Below, in pieces: positions 14,846-28,596 of a DNA stretch of 42,002 nt. The position numbers and the translations under genes are program-made. Position 1 is the first letter of the stretch. Each line of letters opens with the position of its first letter. The notes beneath the pieces were generated by a model. The model was not told where the DNA came from. It did no database searches and saw only the letters and a list, made by a program, of their open reading frames with translations. This DNA comes from Pseudomonadota bacterium (GTDB lineage: Bacteria > Pseudomonadota > Gammaproteobacteria > Eutrophobiales > Eutrophobiaceae): assembly GCA_022562175.1 (NCBI GenBank), contig JADFPU010000003.1, positions 2,608 to 44,609 on the forward strand, in the 5' to 3' direction.

Positions 14846-15538
14846 CTATGAGCCCTGAGTCCCGCCCTGCTGCAAAAACATCTTTATCTGTATCGCCATA
14901 CTTCTGCATGCATTGGCCTGTACCCTGGCCAGCAAAGGGATAGGAATGATGATCGCGGGCATAAATGAGGTGCCCTTTGTTTCTGCACTGATCTTCCCGG
15001 ACAGGACCAGTTTATTAAAATCCCAGACACTGGCTTCATAATTAGCTTCATCATCCCAGGTGGCAAAGCCAAAACATCCACCACCACCGGGCCCGATAGC
15101 GCAAGCAACGGAACCACTACTGTCTGTGCGTTCAGTAAAGCCGTCTATCCAGACAAAATAGCGAATCCGAAAATCAGAAAACTTTTTGGCTATCGCCGGA
15201 TTCTCTAGCAATTTCCCCAGGTTTTTGACATCCATCGGTGCAGTACGCGTTTCAAACCAGGGATACATGCTGTCAACAAACAATTTTTCCGGAATGACCT
15301 GGATACCATTTCCACCTTCAGAGAGTGATTTGCCGACACATGAGATGAAATCAAACTCTGTTTCATGATCACTGCTATGGCGACGTCCGAGCACAACGAT
15401 TGACTCTCCCTTGTTGACACGCGCTGTCGGGGCTTCACGATACTGGTCGATGACGGTAGTGCTTTTACAGCCGGCTATAAGCAGGACAGACATAAGCAGG
15501 GAGAAAATAACAAAAAGATTGTTAGAGCAGTAACGCAT
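14846..15538 (-). CDS. Putative lipoprotein of unknown function (last gene of envelope cluster)
   Basis: Start at MRYCSNN (15538); lipobox LLIAGCKSTT; ORF track extends to 15580 but would overlap the preceding gene. Confidence 0.7.
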   Translation of the reverse strand: MRYCSNNLFVIFSLLMSVLLIAGCKSTTVIDQYREAPTARVNKGESIVVLGRRHSSDHETEFDFISCVGKSLSEGGNGIQVIPEKLFVDSMYPWFETRTAPMDVKNLGKLLENPAIAKKFSDFRIRYFVWIDGFTERTDSSGSVACAIGPGGGGCFGFATWDDEANYEASVWDFNKLVLSGKISAETKGTSFMPAIIIPIPLLARVQANACRSMAIQIKMFLQQGGTQGS

Positions 15539-15551
15539 TGTTGAACCTCTG

Positions 15552-16223
15552 TCAGCAGTTGCTGACTGCATAGTTTTCACATTCGCCGATAGTATCCGCC
15601 AACCATTGCTTTATCTCTATGACATTGCCAAAACCCAGTGCCAGTTTTGCGCCGACATCACGCAGCGCCACTTCAATTGCCGCTTGTAAGCCTGCGCTGC
15701 GATTTTTGAGAAATTCAACCGAACTTTTTCCATAGGCTGTCAGCGGCCAATCGGCGATGAGGCTGCCATCAGGGCTGTATAGCTGGATATTATATTTTAT
15801 CCACACCTCATAAAGTCCGGATTGGGTCTCCCTGGGCAAGGCGAATTGCATTTCTTCTATGTGCGGTGCTAAAACGGCATCGACTTTGGAGATATTAGCA
15901 GATAAATCAATAGACGTGACATGTTGCACCTGTTTGAACATGGAGGGTAGCACCTGATCAAACAGGGCAACCTGGGATGAGCCACTCTCAATCGTCCAGT
16001 TGGGGCGGTCTTCAGAATTCTCACGGTAGACATGATGGCTGAACTGCTCATCATAATAAACGCCTATGTTGAGAGGAATTTGATTGATCAGTGGCGCCGG
16101 TACTTCGGAGGTGACCTTGATTGCCAGGGATTGAGTGCAACCAGAGCTGAATAATAACAGCAGGATAAAGAATATGAGCAGAGCTCTATGGCTGCCTGTG
16201 GTTAATGGATTTGATGTGTTCAT
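15552..16223 (-). CDS. Putative lipoprotein of unknown function
   Basis: 223 aa; lipobox LFSSGCTQS; KVTSEVPAPLINQIPLNIGVYYDEQF. Confidence 0.75.
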   Translation of the reverse strand: MNTSNPLTTGSHRALLIFFILLLLFSSGCTQSLAIKVTSEVPAPLINQIPLNIGVYYDEQFSHHVYRENSEDRPNWTIESGSSQVALFDQVLPSMFKQVQHVTSIDLSANISKVDAVLAPHIEEMQFALPRETQSGLYEVWIKYNIQLYSPDGSLIADWPLTAYGKSSVEFLKNRSAGLQAAIEVALRDVGAKLALGFGNVIEIKQWLADTIGECENYAVSNC

Positions 16224-16246
16224 GATAATTAACTGTTCTGCTATGT

Positions 16247-17242
16247 TTACCGATAATCATTAAGCCCGACAAACGTGCCGCCATTACGATGGGTAAGTTC
16301 GCGCATTAATGTCGCAAAACGTTCCCCGGTAAATTGTAATTGGCGCGGGTTAGCAAACTGTACCGGAAAGCCGACCGCATGGATACGCACTCTTGGCTTG
16401 CCATTGGCATCCTTGGGGTTAATGCGTTCAACAGTATCGACAACTTCCTTGATAGAGCGTCCGGTGAATTCATCGCCGAACACATATAGACTTATCTTTT
16501 TGTCCACGCTGTAAAATGTACGGATTGCGCGGGTTATGCCTTCTACCGGGCTACTGTTACTGAATGGATTCCAGCTTCGCAGTCGATTGATAATGACCCT
16601 GCGCCGGCCCGGTGTGTCGGGCATCCATTTGCCCCGGTACCTGGAAAACATGTAATCACCCATATCGTTTAAAATCTGTATGCCTTTTACCCGCGGGTAG
16701 ACATCCAGGATTGTAATCAGCTGCTTGATCATTTTATTCCAGCTATATTGAAACATACTGCCGGAGGTATCAATGATAAATATAATGTATTCACTATCGA
16801 CCGGGATGCCACCTATGAAATCAGTTTTTTGTTCCTCCCGCTGGCTAAGCAGACGCTGCATCTCTTCGCTAAGTTGTTGCAATGCCAGTTCTAATTCGCC
16901 TTTGATGATAGTATTGACAGATGAGTCCTCTGCGAGTCCGGCATAGCGAACTTGTACATTGGCCAGTTCACGTTGCAGTTTGGCGACCTTTTCATCCCAG
17001 ATTGACAGTTGTTCATGTCTGGCATTTAAATCGCGATTAAGTACTTTTGCTTCGCCACGGATTTGAAACAGCTGGGCCTGCAATTGTTTGACAATACCAT
17101 CAAGCGGTTCTACAGATGCCTCAAGAACGGCTGGTACACCGGTCTTGGCTATCATCAGTAATAATATGATGGCGCCAAAGCCACAGGTAATCACATCAAG
17201 AAACGATAGACCGAAAGCCTCGTTTTCGCGACGCTTCTTCAT
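16247..17242 (-). CDS. VWA-domain protein with N-terminal single TM helix (FLDVITCGFGAIILLLMI)
   Basis: 331 aa; coiled coil after the TM; MIDAS-like FIIDTSGSM; 4-nt overlap with the upstream VWA gene. Confidence 0.88.
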   Translation of the reverse strand: MKKRRENEAFGLSFLDVITCGFGAIILLLMIAKTGVPAVLEASVEPLDGIVKQLQAQLFQIRGEAKVLNRDLNARHEQLSIWDEKVAKLQRELANVQVRYAGLAEDSSVNTIIKGELELALQQLSEEMQRLLSQREEQKTDFIGGIPVDSEYIIFIIDTSGSMFQYSWNKMIKQLITILDVYPRVKGIQILNDMGDYMFSRYRGKWMPDTPGRRRVIINRLRSWNPFSNSSPVEGITRAIRTFYSVDKKISLYVFGDEFTGRSIKEVVDTVERINPKDANGKPRVRIHAVGFPVQFANPRQLQFTGERFATLMRELTHRNGGTFVGLNDYR

Positions 17243-18333
17243 GGCCAGTCTTCGGTGGGGCTCATGAATGCGCCCCGGGTCAACTGCGCTAACCGCCAGA
17301 AGGCAGAGGCGGCCATAGGGTCTCCTTCCATCGGCGACAATATGATATTGACCGGAACACCCTGGGGCAGTTTGTTGAGTGCCTGTTCAAAAAGTTGCAG
17401 GCGCTGTTTGCCGGTGACAGTTGTACCGCGGGGTGGCTTACGGCCCTGGGTAGGCAGGCCATCAGTGAGCAGGTATATATTGTCGGGTAGCGGCCGCAGC
17501 TTACTGGCATAGTCAAAGGCTGTTGCCAGATTGGTGCCCCCTGCCGGGATCACCTCTTTCAATTTTTCAATCGCGCCGTTTAATTGTTGCAAATCCTTAA
17601 CCTCTAGCCATTGTCCGCGGGTATTTGCCAATACGGATTTTGTCTCGGTATTGAAAGTATATATCTGATACTGACTATCGACAGGAAATCGTGTGCTGAT
17701 CCAGTCTACTGTCTGCAGGGCCTGTTGCCATTTGCGTGAATTAAGCCTTTGTTTGCCGGTCATATTACGGCGCCGGATAATGTTGACTATGGTTTTGTCC
17801 AACATGCTTGCCGACACATCCAGCAGGACTAATATTCTTTTGCCGCCGAGTTTCAAACCGGTCAGATATTCCCGGTTGCCTTCACCGACAAAGCTGCGTG
17901 TATCCTTGCCCGTGTTTTGGGTCTCTTTCTCAAGGCGTTGTTTCTGTGCCGCAAGTTTTTTCAGATCGGCCTTGAGTTTTTCCATATCTGCATCCTGGTT
18001 GCTATTAGCCAGCGCTTCCGTGTTACCGGCAACCTCCCTGATTTCGTCCATAATGCGGCGTGCCAGGCCCTTTGCGATCGCTGTCTGGTCATCAATATCG
18101 GAAACTGTATTGTGAAGTTTGGCGAGATTGTCTTTGCCCTGCAAAATCTCTTCTTCTAACAGACTGACTTCCGAGCTGAGATCAGGGGTCGTGTTTACTA
18201 CCGGCACATATGCATCAACATTGTGTTTGATGATCAGAAACAGCAATACCACAGCACCGAATCCACAGGACATGATGTCCAGAAAGGCCAGACTGAAGGC
18301 GGAAAATTCTCGTCGCCTACGGGCCATTGTCAT
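17239..18333 (-). CDS. VWA-domain protein with N-terminal single TM helix (FLDIMSCGFGAVVLLFLI)
   Basis: 364 aa; complete-looking MIDAS (LLDVSASM, GGTNLATAFD, LLTDGLPTQG). Confidence 0.9.
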   Translation of the reverse strand: MTMARRRREFSAFSLAFLDIMSCGFGAVVLLFLIIKHNVDAYVPVVNTTPDLSSEVSLLEEEILQGKDNLAKLHNTVSDIDDQTAIAKGLARRIMDEIREVAGNTEALANSNQDADMEKLKADLKKLAAQKQRLEKETQNTGKDTRSFVGEGNREYLTGLKLGGKRILVLLDVSASMLDKTIVNIIRRRNMTGKQRLNSRKWQQALQTVDWISTRFPVDSQYQIYTFNTETKSVLANTRGQWLEVKDLQQLNGAIEKLKEVIPAGGTNLATAFDYASKLRPLPDNIYLLTDGLPTQGRKPPRGTTVTGKQRLQLFEQALNKLPQGVPVNIILSPMEGDPMAASAFWRLAQLTRGAFMSPTEDWP

Positions 18334-19645
18334 CCAGCACGCTTATAAATTTATACGTCACGCTTGAATCCCGAAAATTCATTGTATCGCCGGCTTGCAC
18401 AGGTGTTTTGCTGTTTAACAGCTGGCCATTTATAAAGGCCTGAAGTTGCCCTGCAGGTGTTATTACGGGTTGATGGTTATTCAGCATCACACAGCCAGCT
18501 GTTGTTTGACCCTTTGACATTTCGGGAGCACCGGTGCCAGACAGATATAAAGGCGTATTTCCTATCGGGTACGCCTGGTCTTCGTAGAGCACATGTGTGA
18601 CGGTGGTTTTTGCTGGCCTGGTGGAGGCCTCGCGTTGCCCGGGAATTTTTGTGGTGCAGGACACAGTCGGGTTTTTGCTGGCGGGAAGTGTGGTAATAAA
18701 GCTCAGGGAAGGGCCCGCTGTACGTATTTGTTGTGTGTATTGCTGACAGCCCAAAAACACAGCATCGACATCCAGTGTTTTATATTCAGGTAAAACGTCC
18801 GCCAGACAGGGTAAGGCGGCCATACGATCACTGAGTAGACAGCTTAAGGAAGGTGAAATGTGTTGAGCGATTCTCTGATAGATGGTCTGCAGTGCATGCG
18901 ACAAAACATGCCGATGTAGCTTTGCCTGGTGAAGGTTCTGCTTGAACTGGATCTCTAGTAAGACTTCCTTATTTTCATGCAGGGATTGCAGGCAACGCGG
19001 TAACTGATCATACAAAGCCTGTTCTGTTTCGGCATGATGCAAGGGGTCAAAACGTGATTGCTGGATGAATAGATCTGCGATCAAGTTGGCACAGGCTGTA
19101 TAGATATGACTGAGCCCTGTTTCATCGATTATTTCAACTGATTGTCGGCTGATTTCATCCTTCACCTGTAGTTGTGTGATGACAGTCTGGTGAAGATGTA
19201 TATCAATGTGCTGATAGTTACCGCTATCGATTATTGCTGCGGTACTCGCGATAGCGGAATCCACCAGACCTATGGCTGTAAACGGACTGGCTTCAGCCAT
19301 GCCAAGTAATAGCGATAATTGCTCCGTGGTGTAATTTCCAGGAACGGCAAATAGTATCTCTTCAGGTTTACCTGCCTGTTCATATAGGGAAAGTAAATGG
19401 GCAAACGCCAGGTCTGCATGATGTCTGTATTGTTTTGCAGGGTTCTGCAAGGCATCCTGGCTAAGTTTATTCCAGAATTGATTGTATGTTTGCCGTGGGT
19501 TCAGGTGCGCCAGTTTGAGTGCCTGTTCGCCAAGATAGAGTTTTTCATTTTTAATGACAGCATAGCCAGGGCTGCGCAAAACGATTTCCGTGCCCTTTGC
19601 TACACGGATCTCGCTGTCATTTAATTCGATTATGCATAATGACAT
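18317..19645 (-). CDS. Actin/Hsp70-fold-like protein with C-terminal FHA-like module
   Basis: 442 aa; N-terminus MSLCIIELNDSEIRVAKG... and ILFAVPGNYTTEQLSLLLGMAEASPFTAIGLVDSAIASTAAI resemble Hsp70/actin-type ATPase lobes; C-terminus INGQLLNSKTPVQAGDTMNFRDSSVTYKF is FHA-like. Confidence 0.6.
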   Translation of the reverse strand: MSLCIIELNDSEIRVAKGTEIVLRSPGYAVIKNEKLYLGEQALKLAHLNPRQTYNQFWNKLSQDALQNPAKQYRHHADLAFAHLLSLYEQAGKPEEILFAVPGNYTTEQLSLLLGMAEASPFTAIGLVDSAIASTAAIIDSGNYQHIDIHLHQTVITQLQVKDEISRQSVEIIDETGLSHIYTACANLIADLFIQQSRFDPLHHAETEQALYDQLPRCLQSLHENKEVLLEIQFKQNLHQAKLHRHVLSHALQTIYQRIAQHISPSLSCLLSDRMAALPCLADVLPEYKTLDVDAVFLGCQQYTQQIRTAGPSLSFITTLPASKNPTVSCTTKIPGQREASTRPAKTTVTHVLYEDQAYPIGNTPLYLSGTGAPEMSKGQTTAGCVMLNNHQPVITPAGQLQAFINGQLLNSKTPVQAGDTMNFRDSSVTYKFISVLDDNGP

Positions 19646-19656
19646 TTTTTACTCCA

Positions 19657-20454
19657 TCAACGGACTTGCAAGTGCCGGATCAGGTTCACATCGCAATAAC
19701 TTTGTGCATCAAGTACCAGGCGATCCTGTAGTAATTGTAGTTGATGCATCAAAAACATGATGATGATACTGATTATCAGTGCGATAAAGGTTGAGTTAAA
19801 GGCAATGCCCAGACTGACAGTTACCCCGACAATATCGCCTTCTACTGCACGGTGGGCTTGCCCCAGCGCCTCGCCAATACCGCGCACCGTGCCAATAAAA
19901 CCTATCGAGGGAATGGCCCAGATGAGATAGCGGATCATGGATAGTTCCGAGTCGAGTCGATCCGATTCTGTGTCGCAGACATCTTTCACCGCAGTTGAGA
20001 CGTTCTGTATATTCTGTGTGGAACCAAAACGCTGCAAGGCGGTGAGTAATGCGCGGGGTAGAAGGTATTCCCTTTCCTCTTCCGGTAGTGCTTGAAGTGG
20101 CCGGGAATATTTGCGTGTATCTTCCGGCAGAATGCTGGTGCCCTCAGCTACCTCCAGCAGGGACTGTTTGAGTAATTTTCGCTCATGTAATGCAAACTTT
20201 CCCTTTAATCCAATAATAGCCATGGCCCAGAGTGCCAGGATAAAACAGGCTTCCTGTTCATAATCTTTCACCACAATGTATACGGAACGTTTTATTACAG
20301 CCGTCTCGCCAGCGTCTTGAATTGCCTGTCGCTCCTGCAGGATTATCTCGGCCTTGGGACGGATAATGGTAACGTATATAGCATGGACAAATATCAGCGC
20401 CAGGAATAAAGAAAACAGCTGATAGATAAAATCAGAGACAGGATTGTGTTTCAT
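19657..20454 (-). CDS. MotA/TolQ/ExbB proton channel family protein
   Basis: 265 aa; MIRYLIWAIPSIGFIGTVRGIGEALGQAHRAVEGDIVGVTVSLGIAFNSTFIALIISIIIMFLMHQLQ is characteristic of the TolQ/ExbB TM2-TM3 region. Confidence 0.9.
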   Translation of the reverse strand: MKHNPVSDFIYQLFSLFLALIFVHAIYVTIIRPKAEIILQERQAIQDAGETAVIKRSVYIVVKDYEQEACFILALWAMAIIGLKGKFALHERKLLKQSLLEVAEGTSILPEDTRKYSRPLQALPEEEREYLLPRALLTALQRFGSTQNIQNVSTAVKDVCDTESDRLDSELSMIRYLIWAIPSIGFIGTVRGIGEALGQAHRAVEGDIVGVTVSLGIAFNSTFIALIISIIIMFLMHQLQLLQDRLVLDAQSYCDVNLIRHLQVR

Positions 20455-20562
20455 ATTGTTGTCCTATGTGCGAGGCTTCAGAACAAAGCTTGCCTGCAGT
20501 GTTTAAGCATTATAAGTGAAAGTGCGTGTATCATATTATTACGCAGACAGATTATTATCGAT

Positions 20563-20799
20563 CTAGATATCCACAGGAAACGACACCGACAAGTCTTCCG
20601 AAATTTCTACACTCGGCTTGAAGGTATCAGGTGTTGCCGGACGGTCTTGAGACTGCTCGGCTTGTTCCTTTTCTGCTTCTGCTTGCTGTACAGTTTTATT
20701 TGCCGCCGTATTGTCGGTGGCGGCATGTTCCTGTGCGTTTACTGCTGGCATCCCCAGCATAGCAACAACAAGGAGTAAATGTCTGAAAACGTTTGCCAA
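20563..20799 (-). CDS. Small secreted protein (78 aa) of unknown function
   Basis: Signal peptide MANVFRHLLLVVAMLGMPAVNA; charged linker; C-terminus DTFKPSVEISEDLSVSFPVDI; positioned within the operon. Confidence 0.65.
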   Translation of the reverse strand: MANVFRHLLLVVAMLGMPAVNAQEHAATDNTAANKTVQQAEAEKEQAEQSQDRPATPDTFKPSVEISEDLSVSFPVDI

Positions 20800-20803
20800 T
20801 ATT

Positions 20804-22894
20804 TCACTCCAGGTAACGTGCGATCCTGAAGCCTACGTCATCACGGGCATCATTGCCGTAATCACGATAGGACAGGCGCAACTCAGTAATCGAACCATGT
20901 GCCCAGCTTGATCCCTTGATAACATGATGCTGTCCGGATGCCGGTCCCAGCAATGCTGATTCGGACTGTTTGCCCTGGCCGATGGTAATATCGTAATAAT
21001 CATGTACCCATTCCGATACATTGCCGCCCATATCGAAAATACCTTTACGGTCAGCAGGAAAACTCCCGACCGGCGCCGTGACCACAAAGCCATCATTGTA
21101 TCCATGGATGATCCTGCCTAACAGGTCTGCCGCAGAGTCATCTGCATAATTGCCATTTTTGGTCGGCGGCGGCAGGCTTTCACCCCAGGGGAACTTCAAT
21201 TGCTGTTGATTGGGCTGCACCCTGGCCACCCAAGCCCATTCCGCCTCGCTGGGCAGACGGTAGCCGGTGGCCTTGTGCCTGAATCCAACCACCTTATTAT
21301 CCTTTACTATATAGAAAGGCGGTAATTTCTCGCGCTTACTGAGCCAGTTACAATAAAGCGCCGCCTGTTCCCAGGTCAGTTTGACCACGGGATGACGGTT
21401 ATCGTTCAGTTGATTGCCTTGCACGTCGCCGGATGAATGAGATCGGTCGAATGCATGGTATTCGGCATTTGTGATTTCATTCAAGGACAGGTAAAACGCC
21501 CGGCTTAGATTAACTTCTCTCAACGTTTCATTGGCTCGACGTCCGGCCTCACGGCGTGACGCTCCCATGATCACGGATGTGGGGTGGAAAAGTTTTAGTA
21601 TTTGCCCGGCAGAGCTCTTGATAATGGCTTTGACGGATTCCTGTCTGGCTTGTCTCAAGGTTTTCAGACTGACAGTAACTTGTTGAGCGATGCCTGCCCG
21701 TGGCGTCACAGTGGTCTGGTAAGTTACGTAGCCTTGCTTGCGTATTTCAATGCGATGGGGTTTAGTGGATAGCGGCAAGATTTGTTTGGCAAGACCTCGC
21801 AGTTTGCCATCGACATACAGTTCAGCGTCAGCAGGTATGCTGTTAAACTCTATTGGCGACAGTTCGGCCTGCAAGTTTACGCGCAGACGTTGTTTGTCAC
21901 CGGACTTCACTTTGAGTTTGCGATGGCTCTGCTGATAGCCTTGTTTAAAAAAACGAATATCAAAAGTCTTGTCCGGCGCGACTGCAATCTCAATGGGTGT
22001 CTGTCCTTTATATTCACCATTAATAGTAATATTTGCACTGGATGGCCTGGTCTCCAGGAAGATGACAGCATCGGCAAGAGCCAGTTCTATTTCAGGTATG
22101 CTAAATGGCTGGTTGGCCGTCACCATGATTTTCTTCTGCCAGCTTTTGTAACCAGACAGTTTTATCCTGACCTCATGCTCACCCTGCAGGATTTCTGTAG
22201 TGAGGGGAGTTTGCCCGACTATATTCTCATCAATATAAACATCCGCGCCTGCCGGTTGTGATGCAAAGCTCAGCTCTGCCCAGGCAGGGATCAATTCGAC
22301 AACAAGCGTCTGTTCATGTCCCAGCCCTTCAATTTCTATACTTGTCGTAAACGGCAGGTATCGCTCTGCATCAATACGTAACGCATGTTCTCCATGTGCA
22401 ATATCACGTATTGTTGTGGGCGTTTTACCCCGGAGTTCACCATCTATCCTTATTTCAGCAGTCGTTGCCGGTGAAGAGCTGATGTTTAGATGGCCTGGCA
22501 GGCGCTGTAACGTGAAAGTATAATGCTGGTTCTGCTGGTCGTTTACGGACAGCAATTGCTTTAACGGATAATAACCCGGCGCCTCAATAGAAAGCTGGTA
22601 ATCACCTGATCGGATTAAAAACCTGTCAGCGAGTTTTAGTTTAATGCCACCCTGTATTTCAATATGGTTGCTTGCAGGGTCGACTTCTATGTAGACCGAT
22701 CTTGCGCTAAAAATGAACCAGACTATCGCGCTGCAAAGCACCAGGATGATGCTTATTAATATACTGCCGATACGGATCCGTCTGCCTGAATCAGGTGCAC
22801 GGTCTGTTGCCGGTGTAAAGGCGGTTGGCTTAATAACGGTCTTTGGTTGCAATGCTGCAGCGTCGACAGGTTGATTGTCATGATTATTATTCAT
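20804..22894 (-). CDS. Membrane-anchored multi-PEGA protein with C-terminal SUMF1/FGE-like domain
   Basis: 696 aa; N-terminal TM (SILISIILVLCSAIVWFIF); about five PEGA-like repeats (e.g. ADVYIDENIVGQTPLTTEILQGEHEVRIKLSGY); FGE-like LSRAFYLSLNEITNAEYHAF ... GYRLPSEAEWAWVAR ... DMGGNVSEWVHDYY ... DDVGFRIAR. Confidence 0.88.
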   Translation of the reverse strand: MNNNHDNQPVDAAALQPKTVIKPTAFTPATDRAPDSGRRIRIGSILISIILVLCSAIVWFIFSARSVYIEVDPASNHIEIQGGIKLKLADRFLIRSGDYQLSIEAPGYYPLKQLLSVNDQQNQHYTFTLQRLPGHLNISSSPATTAEIRIDGELRGKTPTTIRDIAHGEHALRIDAERYLPFTTSIEIEGLGHEQTLVVELIPAWAELSFASQPAGADVYIDENIVGQTPLTTEILQGEHEVRIKLSGYKSWQKKIMVTANQPFSIPEIELALADAVIFLETRPSSANITINGEYKGQTPIEIAVAPDKTFDIRFFKQGYQQSHRKLKVKSGDKQRLRVNLQAELSPIEFNSIPADAELYVDGKLRGLAKQILPLSTKPHRIEIRKQGYVTYQTTVTPRAGIAQQVTVSLKTLRQARQESVKAIIKSSAGQILKLFHPTSVIMGASRREAGRRANETLREVNLSRAFYLSLNEITNAEYHAFDRSHSSGDVQGNQLNDNRHPVVKLTWEQAALYCNWLSKREKLPPFYIVKDNKVVGFRHKATGYRLPSEAEWAWVARVQPNQQQLKFPWGESLPPPTKNGNYADDSAADLLGRIIHGYNDGFVVTAPVGSFPADRKGIFDMGGNVSEWVHDYYDITIGQGKQSESALLGPASGQHHVIKGSSWAHGSITELRLSYRDYGNDARDDVGFRIARYLE

Positions 22895-22902
22895 CTGCTG
22901 TG

Positions 22903-24462
22903 CTATCTTTTCAGGGCGATTTTATCATCACATTGAACAATAACGGACTGTGAAGGCTTGTTCGATGAGACAGTGAATTCAACTCGCACATCACGATATC
23001 CCTGCCTGCTGCCGACAGCAGTATAACGGCCGGGCGCAAGAGGCAGTTGCTTGCTCTTAAAATGGCCGAGTTTGCCAACTTTATATAAAGTGACCTCGGT
23101 CAGGTCATTTGACAGGATTTTTACCGGCACAGGGGTACTGGCTTCAATCAATAATGAACTAAGGAATGCGGTTTGTTTTTTAAGCACCGGCCCCGGCTTG
23201 GTAACGCTCTGTGCCTGACGTTGCAGGTTGACAGCCTCGTTATAGACGGCCTTATTGGACAGGCGTTGTGGTTGAGCAAAGGTTGATAGCAGGCGTCTAT
23301 GCAAACTGGCACGTTGTAAGCTATATTGTTTGCCCTGCCGGGCTGACGCCAGGTTGGCATCCAGCGTCAGGGCTTCATCGTATTTAGCTACAGCTTGCAG
23401 CCATTGTTCGGATTTTTCGAAGTCGCTGGCCTGTTCAAGCAAGGTTTTGATTCTCTGTGAAGTGATACGTTGTGCTGTCTGACTCAGCGCGTTGCGTGCC
23501 TCAGTCGCGGCGGGTTTGATTCTGATCGCCTGGGTAAATGCTTTGTGTGCCTGATTAAGTTCATTTTTCTCAAGCGCCGAATAGCCTCCGGACATGGACC
23601 GGGTAAAGTCACGATCAACGATCGCCTGGTTGACCTGCTTTAGTTTTTCTGTTGCCTGTTCAGCGTCCAGATCCAGATCCAGCACCTGCTGATAAACCTT
23701 TTTTGCTTGCAGAAGCTGACTATTTTGCAGCAATATATCTGCCTGTGCGATCAAGGCAAGGACTTCATCCAGTGTGCCGGCGCGCTTATTGCCTTTTATC
23801 GCAGACTGATTACCGGGTTTGAGTATCAGGGCATGCTGAAATGCCTCAGCCGCTGCGGCAGAGTCACCGTGTTCAAGTGCTTGTCGGCCTTTCTGTATAG
23901 CTGCATCAAATAATTTGTCGACACTTTGTAAAAGCCCGTTAAATGTTTCCAGAGCTTGTTGATAGTGAGACAGTGCCTGTGCAAAGTCGCGCTGCCGATA
24001 AGCGGCGTCGCCAGTTGTCGCTAGTTGTTGAGCTTGCGAAAATGTTTGTTCTGCCCATAGTTTGACATTTATTATCTGCAGTTCATCCTGGGCTTGCAGC
24101 ATTTGAAAGAGTATGTCTTGTGTGTCCTTACGCAACCTGGCTTGCTGGGCTTCATCCCAGGGGGAAGATGGGGCCTGTTTTCTTACAGTGGTTGTCTGTG
24201 CCGTACTGCCGGGCGATTGCTTGTCTGTAGATTGTTGTGTTACTGCAATGCTTGGGGTACTCACCCAATTGGGTAACACAAAGATAACACCTAATACAAA
24301 TACCAGCAGAATAATCAGACCCGGCCAAAGCAAGGGATGGATGTGTGGCCGGCGCCTGGAGGAAGCGGTTTTATCTGCTGCGCGCTGCGGCGTAAAGCTG
24401 ATATCCGCAGGTTTGATCCGTGTGTGTTGCGGTGCTGGTTTGTCCTGGTGGTTTTTATCCAT
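22903..24462 (-). CDS. TPR-repeat protein with single TM and C-terminal PEGA-like segment
   Basis: 519 aa; TM LLWPGLIILLVFVLGVIFVL; several TPRs (FAQALSHYQQALETFNGLL, LNQAHKAFTQAIRIKPAATEARNAL, WLQAVAKYDEALTLDANLASAR). Confidence 0.82.
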   Translation of the reverse strand: MDKNHQDKPAPQHTRIKPADISFTPQRAADKTASSRRRPHIHPLLWPGLIILLVFVLGVIFVLPNWVSTPSIAVTQQSTDKQSPGSTAQTTTVRKQAPSSPWDEAQQARLRKDTQDILFQMLQAQDELQIINVKLWAEQTFSQAQQLATTGDAAYRQRDFAQALSHYQQALETFNGLLQSVDKLFDAAIQKGRQALEHGDSAAAAEAFQHALILKPGNQSAIKGNKRAGTLDEVLALIAQADILLQNSQLLQAKKVYQQVLDLDLDAEQATEKLKQVNQAIVDRDFTRSMSGGYSALEKNELNQAHKAFTQAIRIKPAATEARNALSQTAQRITSQRIKTLLEQASDFEKSEQWLQAVAKYDEALTLDANLASARQGKQYSLQRASLHRRLLSTFAQPQRLSNKAVYNEAVNLQRQAQSVTKPGPVLKKQTAFLSSLLIEASTPVPVKILSNDLTEVTLYKVGKLGHFKSKQLPLAPGRYTAVGSRQGYRDVRVEFTVSSNKPSQSVIVQCDDKIALKR

Positions 24463-24601
24463 GGCAAAAGGTGTAAATATTAAAAAATAATCGTTGTGAT
24501 CCTACTACGAGACTATGCGGAGATGTTAGGTCAATAATGGTTCGGCCACAAAATACGCTATTCATGTAAAAGATTCTCTTACATAAAAACACAAGGAAGC
24601 T

Positions 24602-25792
24602 TTAATGGGGTATAGGGGCTGCCTGCTGTCCGGTTTCCGTCAGGTACATGTCGCGGAGGATCTGTCGCCATTGTGTGTATTGATCATCGACCGTGCCTGA
24701 TAATGTCACTGTTCGGTTTTCTAATGAGATAGTGTGAGGATAGATTTCTGCATCCAGTGAAGAACCGAGTTCTTCAAGCGCTTCGGCATGGATCTCGGCT
24801 TCTTTGCCCTTGTTAATTCCACTCATCACAGCGGTAGCACCGGCGCCGATCCCCACAACACCTGCCGTCCGGGCAACCGCGCTGTCACTGCCCTGCGCCA
24901 GAATGCCGACCAGCACAGCAAGTGCGCCACCAACAATCCGGTTCATGGATTGCTGTTTTATTTCACGCAGTGAGATGGTCTCATGATAGCTTTCGCTGCG
25001 CCAGGCCCGGTAGGGTAGTTCCATTTGCCGGACAAATGAGCCGTAATAATCCTGCAAGGTATCAACAAACATATAATCACGTTCGCGTATTCGCCGGACG
25101 CGCAGCAGGGTGGGATCATTTTCAGCGGGCAGGCGTTTTATTGTATAACGGCCGCGGCCATCGACCTGCAAGTACTCATCAAACACCTCGGGTGCGAATC
25201 GCCGGGCAAATTTTAATTCAGTAATCGTGCGTATTGTCTTCACATCCTCAGGTTTGAGATGTTTTCGAAAGACCAGCATATCGTTGGCGATACGGTTGTA
25301 GATACCCTGGAAAGGTTCCTGCCTGCTGCCACGACGGTCATAGGCATATTTGCTGACGACTTCCTGGTAGTTTCTTGTAAACCAGACCTTGCCAGACGCA
25401 TCTTTTACCGACACCTTGAGTTCCAGCGTCTCACCGTCGGATTTCAGGATCTCACCATCCACCCACAAGTCCATTTCGCTTTGTTGATCCGGAATGACTC
25501 TAACGACCCCCCAGTTGCCGGTCATCTGTAGTGTTTCTGTCAGTTTATAGGGCACATAGCGAGCCTCGGCTTTGCGTATCTCGAGAAACACGCCAACCTG
25601 TTGCGCACTGATCTCATCGATACCCGGGTGAAAGATGCCTACACCCACATCGAGTAACTGATGTTCCGGAATTTGTGTCGGCTCTTGTATTACCGGTGTG
25701 TGCTCAGTAGTTTTAACGGTGGTGGTACTGCAGCCGACAGCCAGCAGGCAAATCACCGTGTAAGATAAAACTCTCAAAATTGTTAATCTCAT
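24602..25792 (-). CDS. Putative lipoprotein with BON-like C-terminal segment
   Basis: 396 aa; lipobox LLAVGCSTTT; C-terminus HTISLENRTVTLSGTVDDQYTQWRQILRDMY is BON-like. Confidence 0.7.
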   Translation of the reverse strand: MRLTILRVLSYTVICLLAVGCSTTTVKTTEHTPVIQEPTQIPEHQLLDVGVGIFHPGIDEISAQQVGVFLEIRKAEARYVPYKLTETLQMTGNWGVVRVIPDQQSEMDLWVDGEILKSDGETLELKVSVKDASGKVWFTRNYQEVVSKYAYDRRGSRQEPFQGIYNRIANDMLVFRKHLKPEDVKTIRTITELKFARRFAPEVFDEYLQVDGRGRYTIKRLPAENDPTLLRVRRIRERDYMFVDTLQDYYGSFVRQMELPYRAWRSESYHETISLREIKQQSMNRIVGGALAVLVGILAQGSDSAVARTAGVVGIGAGATAVMSGINKGKEAEIHAEALEELGSSLDAEIYPHTISLENRTVTLSGTVDDQYTQWRQILRDMYLTETGQQAAPIPH

Positions 25793-26784
25793 CGTCTACT
25801 GATCACCCCTTTGGTGTAATTGCGGTATTCGTTCCACAATTTTTCCCGTAATACCGGATCTGTTTCTTTCGTGGCAGCCTCTCTGAGTTGCTTCGCCACA
25901 ATATCATCATCTCTGCCGTCAGGTATATCAGAGGGTATTGTGGCTTGGGTGTTAGCGTGTTCAAATTCACCGCTACGGTTGCTGGCCGGTGCATTCGGCA
26001 ACTGGCCACTTCCGGAAGCGTTGCCAGCACGCTTGGCCATAGTTGTTAACAGTGGCGCGGCCTGTGTTTCGTCTGCCCCGTCAAAACCAGCACCTCCCAC
26101 AGCATAGACTCCGGATTGGCTGCCCAGTTCATTATCCTTCTGTGTCAAGTCGTCTCGTTTGCTCAATATCATGCCGTCGAACTGAGACAGCTTTTCATTG
26201 AACTGGCTTTCCAGCAGCATGACGCGTTCAGCTTCAGTCATCGCTGCCGAGCTGCCTGAGCCAGTGCCATCGCTATAAACCGGCTCAGCCGCCAAGCCGG
26301 CCTGTCCTGGCTGGCCACCGACGATAATAAGTTGAACGCCGCCATCGTCGCTGCCTTGAGGCGTTGGCCCACCGGCATCGCCCCGGGATTGCATTTGTTT
26401 ATCAAATTCATCAAGCGCTGCGGACAGCACCTCATCCTCTGATCCCTGACTAGAAGGCTCACCAGCAGATTGCGCATTGCTGGCATCCTGTGATGTCGAA
26501 TCTTGAGAGGCCTCTGTCTGACTTTGCGTCTGCAAGAGTTCAGGACTCTGCGCAGTACCTTCAGTCTGACTCGATAGTTGCTGCTGTGCGGACGCTGATG
26601 GATTGGCTTGTGACGCACTCGACTCGCTGCTGGTTGAGGATGGCTCAGCAGTCGACGGTGATGTGCTGGAAGAACTGGATGATGAGGGCGGCGGTGGCGG
26701 GGTTTTACAGGCAACCGACAACAACAGTATCGCCGTCACAGTGAGCATGTATAAAGTATTTTTAATCCGGTATGGTTGACGCAT
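25789..26784 (-). CDS. Putative lipoprotein with Ser/Gln-rich low-complexity linker
   Basis: Start at MRQPYRIKN (26784); lipobox LLSVACKTPP, then PPPPPSSSSSSSTSPSTAEPSSTSSESSASQANPSASAQQQ...; ATGA-type 4-nt overlap with the downstream gene. Confidence 0.72.
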   Translation of the reverse strand: MRQPYRIKNTLYMLTVTAILLLSVACKTPPPPPSSSSSSSTSPSTAEPSSTSSESSASQANPSASAQQQLSSQTEGTAQSPELLQTQSQTEASQDSTSQDASNAQSAGEPSSQGSEDEVLSAALDEFDKQMQSRGDAGGPTPQGSDDGGVQLIIVGGQPGQAGLAAEPVYSDGTGSGSSAAMTEAERVMLLESQFNEKLSQFDGMILSKRDDLTQKDNELGSQSGVYAVGGAGFDGADETQAAPLLTTMAKRAGNASGSGQLPNAPASNRSGEFEHANTQATIPSDIPDGRDDDIVAKQLREAATKETDPVLREKLWNEYRNYTKGVISRR

Positions 26785-26794
26785 GTCTGGTCTC

Positions 26795-28114
26795 TCATTC
26801 ATCATATATATAACGTATACTAACATCGGTGGTTTCTACCGGTTTGCCATTCTCAAGACGGGGCCGGAATCGCGTTAATTTTACACTCTTTTTAGCCCTG
26901 CGCTGCAGTGACGCATCATCAGCAGGATCCGATTCAATGATCTGTATATTCCTTGCACGTCCTGTTTTAGTGACATTGAAGGAGACCAGGACGGACGGCT
27001 TATTTTTATTATCTTGCTTGTTTTTGTATGGCAAGGGTAACTGTATGGCCGGTAATGTTCTGGGTCGTGCGAACAGCTTGTCGATATCCAGCGTGTCCGT
27101 TTGATGTTCACTCAGGAATGCATAAGCCTGTTGGTAATTCATCATCGCAGTAGTTCTTTTGTTGAAAAGCTGATGCCAGTCACCCAGATGGATCAATGCT
27201 AATGCATGCGAGTCAGAGGGTAGTTGCGGGTTGCTTTCATAAATATCAATAATCCGTGTCATGGCACGTTTGCCAGTCCGGTAGCTATTTGCTAATAAGT
27301 TTTGCTGCACTATCTCCTGTTCGCTCAAACGCCGTCGATGCCGGTTGCCAGTAAAACTTGAACGTATATCGTCACTATTTTCAAGGTTGCTTGCATAGGC
27401 GGCCATTTGGTAATTGATTAAGGCAATGGCGTAAAGCGGGTCGATTAAACGCGGATCGAACTGACCGTAATGTGTTTCGATGATAGCCACGGCATTTTTG
27501 TATAGCGCATTAGCGTCCAGCAGATGTCTGAACAGTAATTCGTCGGATTGCAACTGATAGGCATTGATGTGCCAACGTCCAAGTCTATCGATAATCGGTA
27601 GTAAACGCGGATCTTCATTGCCGTAGTTGCGAAGATGCACCCAATAGAGGTAATGATAATTCTTATCCAGCGCCTGCCAGTCTGATAATGCCGTATTTGT
27701 CTCGATAATGAGTTCCAGGATAGGCAGTTGACTGGTATTGTGCAGGCCATTGTTGATGCGGTTGATATGCAGCGATCGCTTTAGAACCTCAATGGCCTGC
27801 TCGTGTTGTCCCTGGTTGCGATACACCAGACCCAGACCCAGCAGCTGCTCGCTCAGTTGATCATGATAGACACCGTGGGTTCTCTGCAGCGCGTCTATCG
27901 TTTGTTGATATTGCGATATGGATCGTCTGGCTTCAGCTGTAATATTGCCGTCCGGGTCAGGTTCGGCAGTCTGTTGCAACGACGCGTCGCTAGCGGAGAC
28001 TGCGGTTGTATCTGCGGATCCGGTTTTTTGTGGAGGCATCTCAGCCGCGTAGGCGGCAAGGCCTGAGATGCATAGCAAACCAGGCAATATGTAAAGGATC
28101 CGATATTTATTCAT
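26795..28114 (-). CDS. TPR protein with TonB-C-like C-terminal domain
   Basis: Signal peptide MNKYRILYILPGLLCISGLAAYA; TPR-like LGLVYRNQGQHEQAIEVLKRSLHI; C-terminus VLVSFNVTKTGRARNIQIIESDPADDASLQRRAKKSVKLTRFRPRLENGKPVETTDVSIRYIYDE resembles TonB C-terminal domains. Confidence 0.8.
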   Translation of the reverse strand: MNKYRILYILPGLLCISGLAAYAAEMPPQKTGSADTTAVSASDASLQQTAEPDPDGNITAEARRSISQYQQTIDALQRTHGVYHDQLSEQLLGLGLVYRNQGQHEQAIEVLKRSLHINRINNGLHNTSQLPILELIIETNTALSDWQALDKNYHYLYWVHLRNYGNEDPRLLPIIDRLGRWHINAYQLQSDELLFRHLLDANALYKNAVAIIETHYGQFDPRLIDPLYAIALINYQMAAYASNLENSDDIRSSFTGNRHRRRLSEQEIVQQNLLANSYRTGKRAMTRIIDIYESNPQLPSDSHALALIHLGDWHQLFNKRTTAMMNYQQAYAFLSEHQTDTLDIDKLFARPRTLPAIQLPLPYKNKQDNKNKPSVLVSFNVTKTGRARNIQIIESDPADDASLQRRAKKSVKLTRFRPRLENGKPVETTDVSIRYIYDE

Positions 28115-28596
28115 AAACACCATTATCTCAACTTAGCGGCAATCTTGTAATAGTTGCAGCGATGCCTGGGTCGAAATCCACTTTTTTGCTCTTTTTTGCA
28201 TTATTATCCCTCAGTTGGCCCCGAATTTGAGGATTATAGACCGGCTAAAAAGTCCGCGCTTACAACTGATATTGCTGCAGCACACTACATATCAGGCAAG
28301 CACTTGTATTCCGGTAATATATTTGGATTCATCTCTTCAAAAATTGTTCCTCAATATTCGAGCCATGTGCCTGTTATTTCTTTATTCAGCCTGATTTTCA
28401 GGCAGAAAGCGTTTCTATCGGTATAGGCTAAATTCAGGCGCGCATGTAATAATGGGGCAAACTTGTTGCTTCTACTAGAAATAATAGCTAATAAACAGAC
28501 AAATGCTGTTGAGATTTCTCATGCAAAAATGATATATCAGCCGGCATAATCCACACGCAAACAGAAGTGCTTATTTTCCTAACCATGGGACAAGAT

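Follow-up and report, generated by a model that had tools for sequence, protein, structure and literature searches.

What kind of system is encoded by a run of twelve minus-strand genes that combine a proton channel subunit, two VWA proteins, an Hsp70-like protein and several putative lipoproteins? The genes lie at positions 14846-28123 of the window, by which we mean the whole 42,002-nucleotide stretch analysed here (assembly GCA_022562175.1, contig JADFPU010000003.1, positions 2,608 to 44,609). The source genome is 2.7 Mb in 277 contigs, and its close relatives are recorded as Gammaproteobacteria. We conclude that the cluster probably encodes a dedicated trans-envelope force transducer driven by the proton motive force (PMF), i.e. 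a Tol/Ton-like motor of the 5:2 kind that carries VWA heads on its driven shaft. An earlier annotation made from the letters of this DNA (the original prediction) had proposed an energised trans-envelope apparatus. The single conserved gene set, the proton-channel motor and the periplasmic and lipoprotein partners agree with this proposal, whereas an action at the outer membrane is what we infer.

The twelve genes form a conserved operon

All twelve predicted open reading frames (ORFs) are present. In order of transcription they are as follows (TM, transmembrane; MIDAS-bearing VWA domains are described below):

26795..28123, minus strand: TPRTonB, secreted TPR protein with a TonB C-terminal domain; first gene, accessory
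25789..26826, minus strand: SerLP, putative lipoprotein with a long Ser/Gly-rich linker and a conserved C-terminal segment; core
24602..25792, minus strand: BONLP, lipoprotein that combines a PelC/LptE/TolB-N-like domain with long helices and, at the C-terminus, a small BON-like unit; core
22903..24462, minus strand: TPRTM, single N-terminal TM helix and periplasmic TPR repeats; core
20804..22894, minus strand: PEGASUMF, TM helix, five PEGA domains and a SUMF1-fold domain without the catalytic Cys pair; core
20563..20799, minus strand: p78, small secreted protein of 78 residues with a P-x-D-I C-terminal tail (here ...SVSFPVDI); core
20566..20580, minus strand: codons of the conserved FPVDI tail of p78
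19657..20454, minus strand: TolQ-like, proton channel subunit of the TolQ/ExbB/MotA family (PF01618), probably with four TM helices; core
18317..19645, minus strand: ASKHA, cytoplasmic Hsp70/actin fold with an FHA-like C-terminal domain; accessory
17239..18333, minus strand: VWA1, TM helix with D19 (FLDIM), stalk of ~135 residues and VWA domain; core
16247..17242, minus strand: VWA2, paralogue of VWA1, TM helix with D16 (FLDVI), stalk of ~124 residues and VWA domain; core
15552..16223, minus strand: LP223, lipoprotein without Pfam match; accessory
14846..15580, minus strand: LP244, lipoprotein without Pfam match, lipobox LLIAGC; accessory

The genes had been described as overlapping by about 4 nt or nearly abutting, which is true of some junctions only. 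Exact 4-nt overlaps are found between SerLP and BONLP (25789-25792) and between VWA1 and VWA2 (17239-17242), and the small intergenic gaps measure 4, 8, 11 and 23 nt. TPRTonB/SerLP, ASKHA/VWA1 and LP223/LP244, on the other hand, overlap by more than 4 nt, and larger gaps separate BONLP from TPRTM (139 nt) and p78 from TolQ-like (108 nt).

The seven large core genes (SerLP, BONLP, TPRTM, PEGASUMF, TolQ-like, VWA1 and VWA2) occur all together in 72 of 73 loci. This set comprises the non-redundant complete loci whose flanking sequence was long enough, and it spans Gammaproteobacteria and one other class. TolQ-like, VWA1 and VWA2 are present in every one of them, and SerLP, BONLP, TPRTM and PEGASUMF in 72 each. 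The lone exception (L063) has kept the part from p78 to LP244, which is not adjoined by SerLP-BONLP-TPRTM-PEGASUMF and reads as a split or rearranged operon. Among the accessory genes, ASKHA and LP223 were found in 64 loci each, LP244 in 62 and TPRTonB in 61; a reduced version devoid of all four is carried by two genomes from the same family as well as by another class.

Gene order and strand are constant in about 100 loci, even though most of the proteins are merely 30-70% identical. Over 369 genomes of the class, VWA1 and BONLP were found together in 27, VWA1 alone in 4, BONLP alone in 2 and neither in 336 (Fisher p = 2e-34, a value that is only indicative because the sampled genomes are related). 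One of the two genomes with BONLP alone has an in-frame TAG stop in the BONLP homologue (G595:C1:1845956-1847077), perhaps a decaying copy, and no VWA1 match there; the assembly of the other is 87% complete. The arrangement kept at such identities and the co-occurrence of VWA1 with BONLP show that the clustering is beyond chance. In the gene-neighbourhood comparison TolQ-like, both VWA genes, PEGASUMF and the small p78-type gene recur together across loci, as one would expect from the original prediction, and the twelve genes form a real, conserved operon.

Homologues were detected in 15 of 40 relatives, in 15 of 399 genomes across the phylum and in 31 of 369 across the class (~8%). A scan of named genomes gave 425 encoding places; the best 80 that were retained include Microbulbifer, Haliea, Parahaliea, Pseudohalioglobus, Colwellia, Thalassotalea, Pseudoalteromonas denitrificans and many metagenome-assembled genomes (MAGs). 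Three loci titled Klebsiella pneumoniae MAG (L041, L083 and L119) have the operon arranged as in other gammaproteobacteria, and these titles look mislabelled.

The channel subunit and its VWA partners

TolQ-like matches the MotA_ExbB family with E=3e-13 (50 bits against a cut-off of 22.9), and the PEGA, SUMF1-like, TPR, TonB-C and first VWA domains named in the original prediction likewise score above the Pfam curated cut-offs. In 93 sequences the residues W179, P182, G188-T189-V190-R191-G192-I193, F219, S221 and T222 are invariant, and N220 is kept in 92. Hydropathy and alignment suggest that the protein probably has four TM helices as in MotA, one of which scores below the threshold of the hydropathy scan. 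A comparison of its sequence profile with the PDB gave nothing useful.

The two VWA proteins share a basic N-terminal end, followed by a single TM helix with the motif F-L-D-[IV]-[MI]. VWA1 is recognised by Pfam (VWA_2, E=3.3e-9); VWA2 stays under the Pfam cut-off and is identified as a paralogue by its profile match to VWA1 (hhalign probability 99.5 across 247 columns), so that both predicted TM-VWA proteins are supported. The Asp of the TM helix is invariant (D19 of VWA1 in 101/101 sequences, D16 of VWA2 in 100/100), and its position matches the P-x-I-D-V motif of ExbD/TolR (PYIDVM in the TolR of the same genome). An Asp in a TM helix and a Thr in the channel are the kinds of residues that ExbBD, TolQR and MotAB use (for vWA models see PMC12204202). 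Because of this invariant Asp, VWA1 and VWA2 are, as judged from their sequences, the TolR/ExbD equivalents of the cluster, and a motor mechanism is likely by homology. It had been stated that nothing resembling classical TolR, ExbD, MotB, TolB or Pal is present; canonical tol, exb or mot genes are indeed missing from the cluster, but the statement does not extend to the VWA pair.

The metal ion-dependent adhesion site (MIDAS) of VWA1 is complete: D172, S174, S176 and D291 are invariant in 101 sequences and T267 is either T or S. Its C-terminal WP is invariant as well. In VWA2 the MIDAS residues D158, S160 and D257 are invariant in 100 sequences. The stalks between helix and head measure 130-138 residues in VWA1 and 123-126 in VWA2 in the full version of the operon, as compared to 117-122 and 115-119, respectively, in the reduced version.

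TM-VWA and TPR proteins are also combined in Bat operons, and the pairing found here resembles them. One could thus imagine a Bat-like (MoxR-VWA) stress operon in which the TM-VWA pair and the TPR protein have a chaperone-type role and the channel gene is incidental. We regard this as very improbable: the cluster contains neither a MoxR ATPase nor DUF58, the VWA anchors are N-terminal and carry an invariant Asp, and TolQ-like is found in all 73 complete loci.

In a phylogenetic tree the TolQ-like proteins form a clade (97/97) that is separate from TolQ (98/97) and from ExbB; the order of the deep branches, which are long, is uncertain. The genome of the window carries ybgC-tolQRA and exbBD elsewhere, both intact and unlinked to the TolQ-like gene. 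A grouping of TolQ-like with a canonical Tol/Exb operon elsewhere, which had been named as a possible objection, is thus not what we find. These data also bear on a second explanation, namely that the cluster is an offshoot of Ton/Tol in which TolQ-like supports or replaces Tol-Pal or ExbBD, with the VWA proteins attached sideways like TolA or TonB. The TonB_C domain encoded by the first gene fits such a scheme, and a vWA family that binds from the side and has an SHLS motif is described in PMC12204202; however, the intact ybgC-tolQRA and exbBD loci, the well-supported clade of TolQ-like, the pore-type Asp on the VWA helices and the operon's lack of a TolR/ExbD gene make this explanation unlikely.

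A small secreted protein with a fixed C-terminal end

The protein p78 had been listed as a 78-residue secreted protein, and it is present, but it is not just an extra. It consists of a signal-like start, a weakly conserved linker and a fixed C-terminal end, in which the P, D and I of the P-x-D-I tail are invariant in 84 distinct rows and the P is preceded by F or Y. The tail sits at the free C-terminus. In a wider search frame covering the loci with upstream sequence, the small ORF before tolQ-like ends with P-x-D-[IMLV] in 98 of 98 cases, for which reason we count p78 as a defining part: it is the eighth core component, and its C-terminus is under extreme constraint. Reduced versions have a small ORF of ~45-60 residues at the same place, ending with ...SxxSFPVDI or similar, that could easily be overlooked by annotation. 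At the DNA level, the tail pattern is found only once in the whole genome of the window. At locus L145, PEGASUMF is apparently separated from the small PxDI gene by the insertion of an antitoxin-like and a PIN-like ORF (recognised by eye).

Envelope proteins and the Hsp70-like protein

TPRTonB has an N-terminal signal-like segment in addition to its TPR_12 (4.3e-10) and TonB_C (1.3e-8) domains. SerLP is probably lipid-anchored, with the low-complexity linker behind the anchor; its lipobox is atypical in the window copy, and its conserved C-terminal segment of ~36 residues aligns as DIPxGxDDDxVARQLREAAxxExDPxLRExLWxEYRKYK. BONLP had been called a BON-like lipoprotein. In its AlphaFold2 model (predicted local distance difference test score, pLDDT, 82.5) this holds at most for the C-terminal strand-strand-helix at 350-387, whereas the N-terminal domain is predicted to resemble PelC best (Foldseek probability 1.00, TM-score by target 0.55-0.61), then LptE and the N-terminal region of TolB. 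Sequence profiles of BONLP, LP223 and LP244 found nothing useful in the PDB, and a mutual comparison of the three gave no convincing likeness beyond the signal peptide, the LP223/BONLP match being weak. In LP244 the lipobox falls around residue 38 of the ORF as listed, and translation therefore probably starts at an ATG further inside. TPRTM has a TM helix at 44-62 and TPR repeats (TPR_2, 2.6e-12).

PEGASUMF contains five PEGA domains (7e-56) and an FGE-sulfatase/SUMF1 domain (2.4e-36). The alignment lacks the catalytic Cys pair of the FGE/SUMF1 family; the sole conserved Cys, C515, lies outside the C-terminal active-site stretch. Since the catalytic Cys of the formylglycine-generating enzyme is missing, this domain is likely to have a binding role. 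Its best NCBIfam model is GldK (1.4e-28), and the gene stands in the vicinity of a motor as in gldKLMN, which brings to mind a machine like the type IX secretion system (T9SS) or the gliding apparatus, where a motor and a SUMF1-fold ring protein comparable to GldL/M with GldK/N would serve secretion or adhesin movement. We consider such a machine quite improbable, as the GldK score is 100 bits against a cut-off of 350, the twelve products include no GldM, GldN or translocon family and no such recurrent flanking gene was seen.

The Hsp70/actin-like protein with an FHA-like tail is supported by both predicted structure and profile. The AlphaFold2 model of ASKHA (pLDDT 92.5) has the nucleotide-binding fold of Hsp70, with Foldseek matches to DnaK/Ssz1 at ~1e-15. 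The FHA-like domain, with weak matches to EssC, Ki-67 and CHFR, stands where Hsp70 chaperones have their substrate-binding domain. The phosphate-binding loops look degenerate in an alignment mapped by eye, the Gly/Thr loops being replaced (ELND.., LHQ..).

Neighbouring genes

In 64 of 80 loci the next gene after LP244 encodes an M48 metalloprotease (PF01435). It comes in two subtypes, i.e. 52 that appear BepA/LoiP-like and 12 others (e.g. L057:13545-15011 and L029:17081-17821). This position suggests a functional tie with outer-membrane quality control. Other flanking genes differ by lineage (electron transfer flavoprotein and FAD oxidoreductases in the window, other housekeeping genes elsewhere), and we do not count them in. 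A PADLOC scan assigned no defence system to the cluster proteins; the matches were weak and mostly in coiled-coil stretches.

A further MotA_ExbB protein is encoded elsewhere in the same genome (L024, contig C256, 844-2196), followed by a 197-residue protein whose TM helix contains an Asp (DPFTDLLFNALLGFTFLFLIAIMF) and which belongs to no Pfam family. Several relatives have similarly weak-scoring MotA_ExbB proteins.

Proposed mechanism

In the force transducer that we favour, TolQ-like would form a ring in the inner membrane, and VWA1 and VWA2 would most likely pair as a heterodimer whose TM helices lie within this ring, a stoichiometry that we infer. D19 and D16 would bind protons as the corresponding Asp does in ExbD, TolR and MotB, and proton flow may turn or tilt the two stalks, which are of near-equal length (~125-135 residues each). 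The stalks would carry the two VWA heads, which bind metal, up into the periplasm, where these might grip ligands via their MIDAS; the acidic P-x-D-I tail of p78 is a candidate for such a ligand, or for a clutch. TPRTM and PEGASUMF, both TM-anchored, could form a scaffold in the periplasm, and at the outer-membrane end the force would be taken up by the lipoproteins BONLP (TolB-N/PelC-like) and SerLP (with its long linker). ASKHA may act in the cytoplasm as a regulator or adaptor, in most versions of the system but not in all. The output is probably the mobilisation of lipoproteins or outer-membrane proteins, given the TolB-N-like domain of BONLP and the frequent M48 neighbour. More specifically, we speculate that the free C-terminus of p78 (P-x-D-I-COOH) docks at the MIDAS metal of one VWA head and that the heterodimeric shaft thereby takes hold of an assembly of outer-membrane lipoproteins and lets it go again; this is a tentative and rather doubtful idea.

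Three observations weigh against the proposed transducer. Firstly, hhalign found no similarity between VWA1 and the TolR of the same genome, and the link to ExbD/TolR is therefore drawn from the TM Asp motif, the topology and the gene context. Secondly, the Foldseek E-values of BONLP are weak, from 3e-3 (best) to 1e-1. Thirdly, M48 is a neighbourhood signal, and no M48 gene follows LP244 in 16 of the 80 loci, the window included.

Comparison with known systems

A motor made of TolQ and paired "transpore-helix vWA" proteins, with unknown function, has been predicted (PMC12204202, Mol Biol Evol 2025, Fig. 4c,d). Our cluster fits what is described there as the second family, including an Idiomarina locus, the comparison being one of descriptions: both have a TolQ homologue, two heterologous TM-VWA proteins, a TM Asp and no tolR/exbD, and both are from Proteobacteria. 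PEGA, SUMF1 and Hsp70 have no occurrence in the main text of PMC12204202, and relative to that text the operon content, the p78 tail, ASKHA and the lipoproteins are added here. Other recent motor literature that was searched does not mention vWA, and searches of open-licence articles found no paper on the wider gene set. The original claim that no named system has this composition therefore stands for the whole gene set as far as found, but not for the motor core, which PMC12204202 had predicted. What was a brief prediction of TolQ and vWA pairs in that paper can now be tested as a machine that has an outer-membrane end and a peptide as its candidate ligand.

The cluster resembles Tol-Pal and Ton (TolQR, ExbBD) in its channel family, the conserved Thr, the TM Asp of the partner and the lipoprotein and TonB-C modules. 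It differs from them in the partner protein, where a VWA head takes the place of the TolR/ExbD domain, and in that TolQ-like branches separately. By Pfam, no tolR, tolA, tolB or pal is linked to the TolQ-like gene in the cluster; there is no ExbD in it either, and the TonB_C protein is apparently secreted and missing in 12 of 73 loci. GldKLMN of the T9SS shares the motor adjoining a SUMF1-fold envelope protein, but GldL, GldM, GldN and the translocon have no counterpart here. The GldLM-like character that had been proposed is reflected in a real similarity to GldK, and as the score is far under the GldK cut-off the kinship is one of analogy only.

AglRQS-Glt, the gliding motor of Myxococcus, also has one TolQ-type protein and two different partners. 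AglQ and AglS are of TolR type, whereas the partners in our cluster are VWA proteins, and no Glt genes were recognised in it. ZorAB of the Zorya defence system is likewise a 5:2 motor outside Tol/Ton/Mot; Zorya models had no match among the ten cluster products scanned. The known envelope motors driven by the PMF are few, namely Mot, Tol, Ton, Gld, Agl and Zor. The cluster would probably add another, carried by cultured marine bacteria such as Microbulbifer, Haliea, Parahaliea and Pseudoalteromonas denitrificans, with its parts defined and individual residues available for mutation, and if p78 does dock at the MIDAS, its mode of force transmission would be unlike the TonB box, TolA-Pal and MotB-peptidoglycan.

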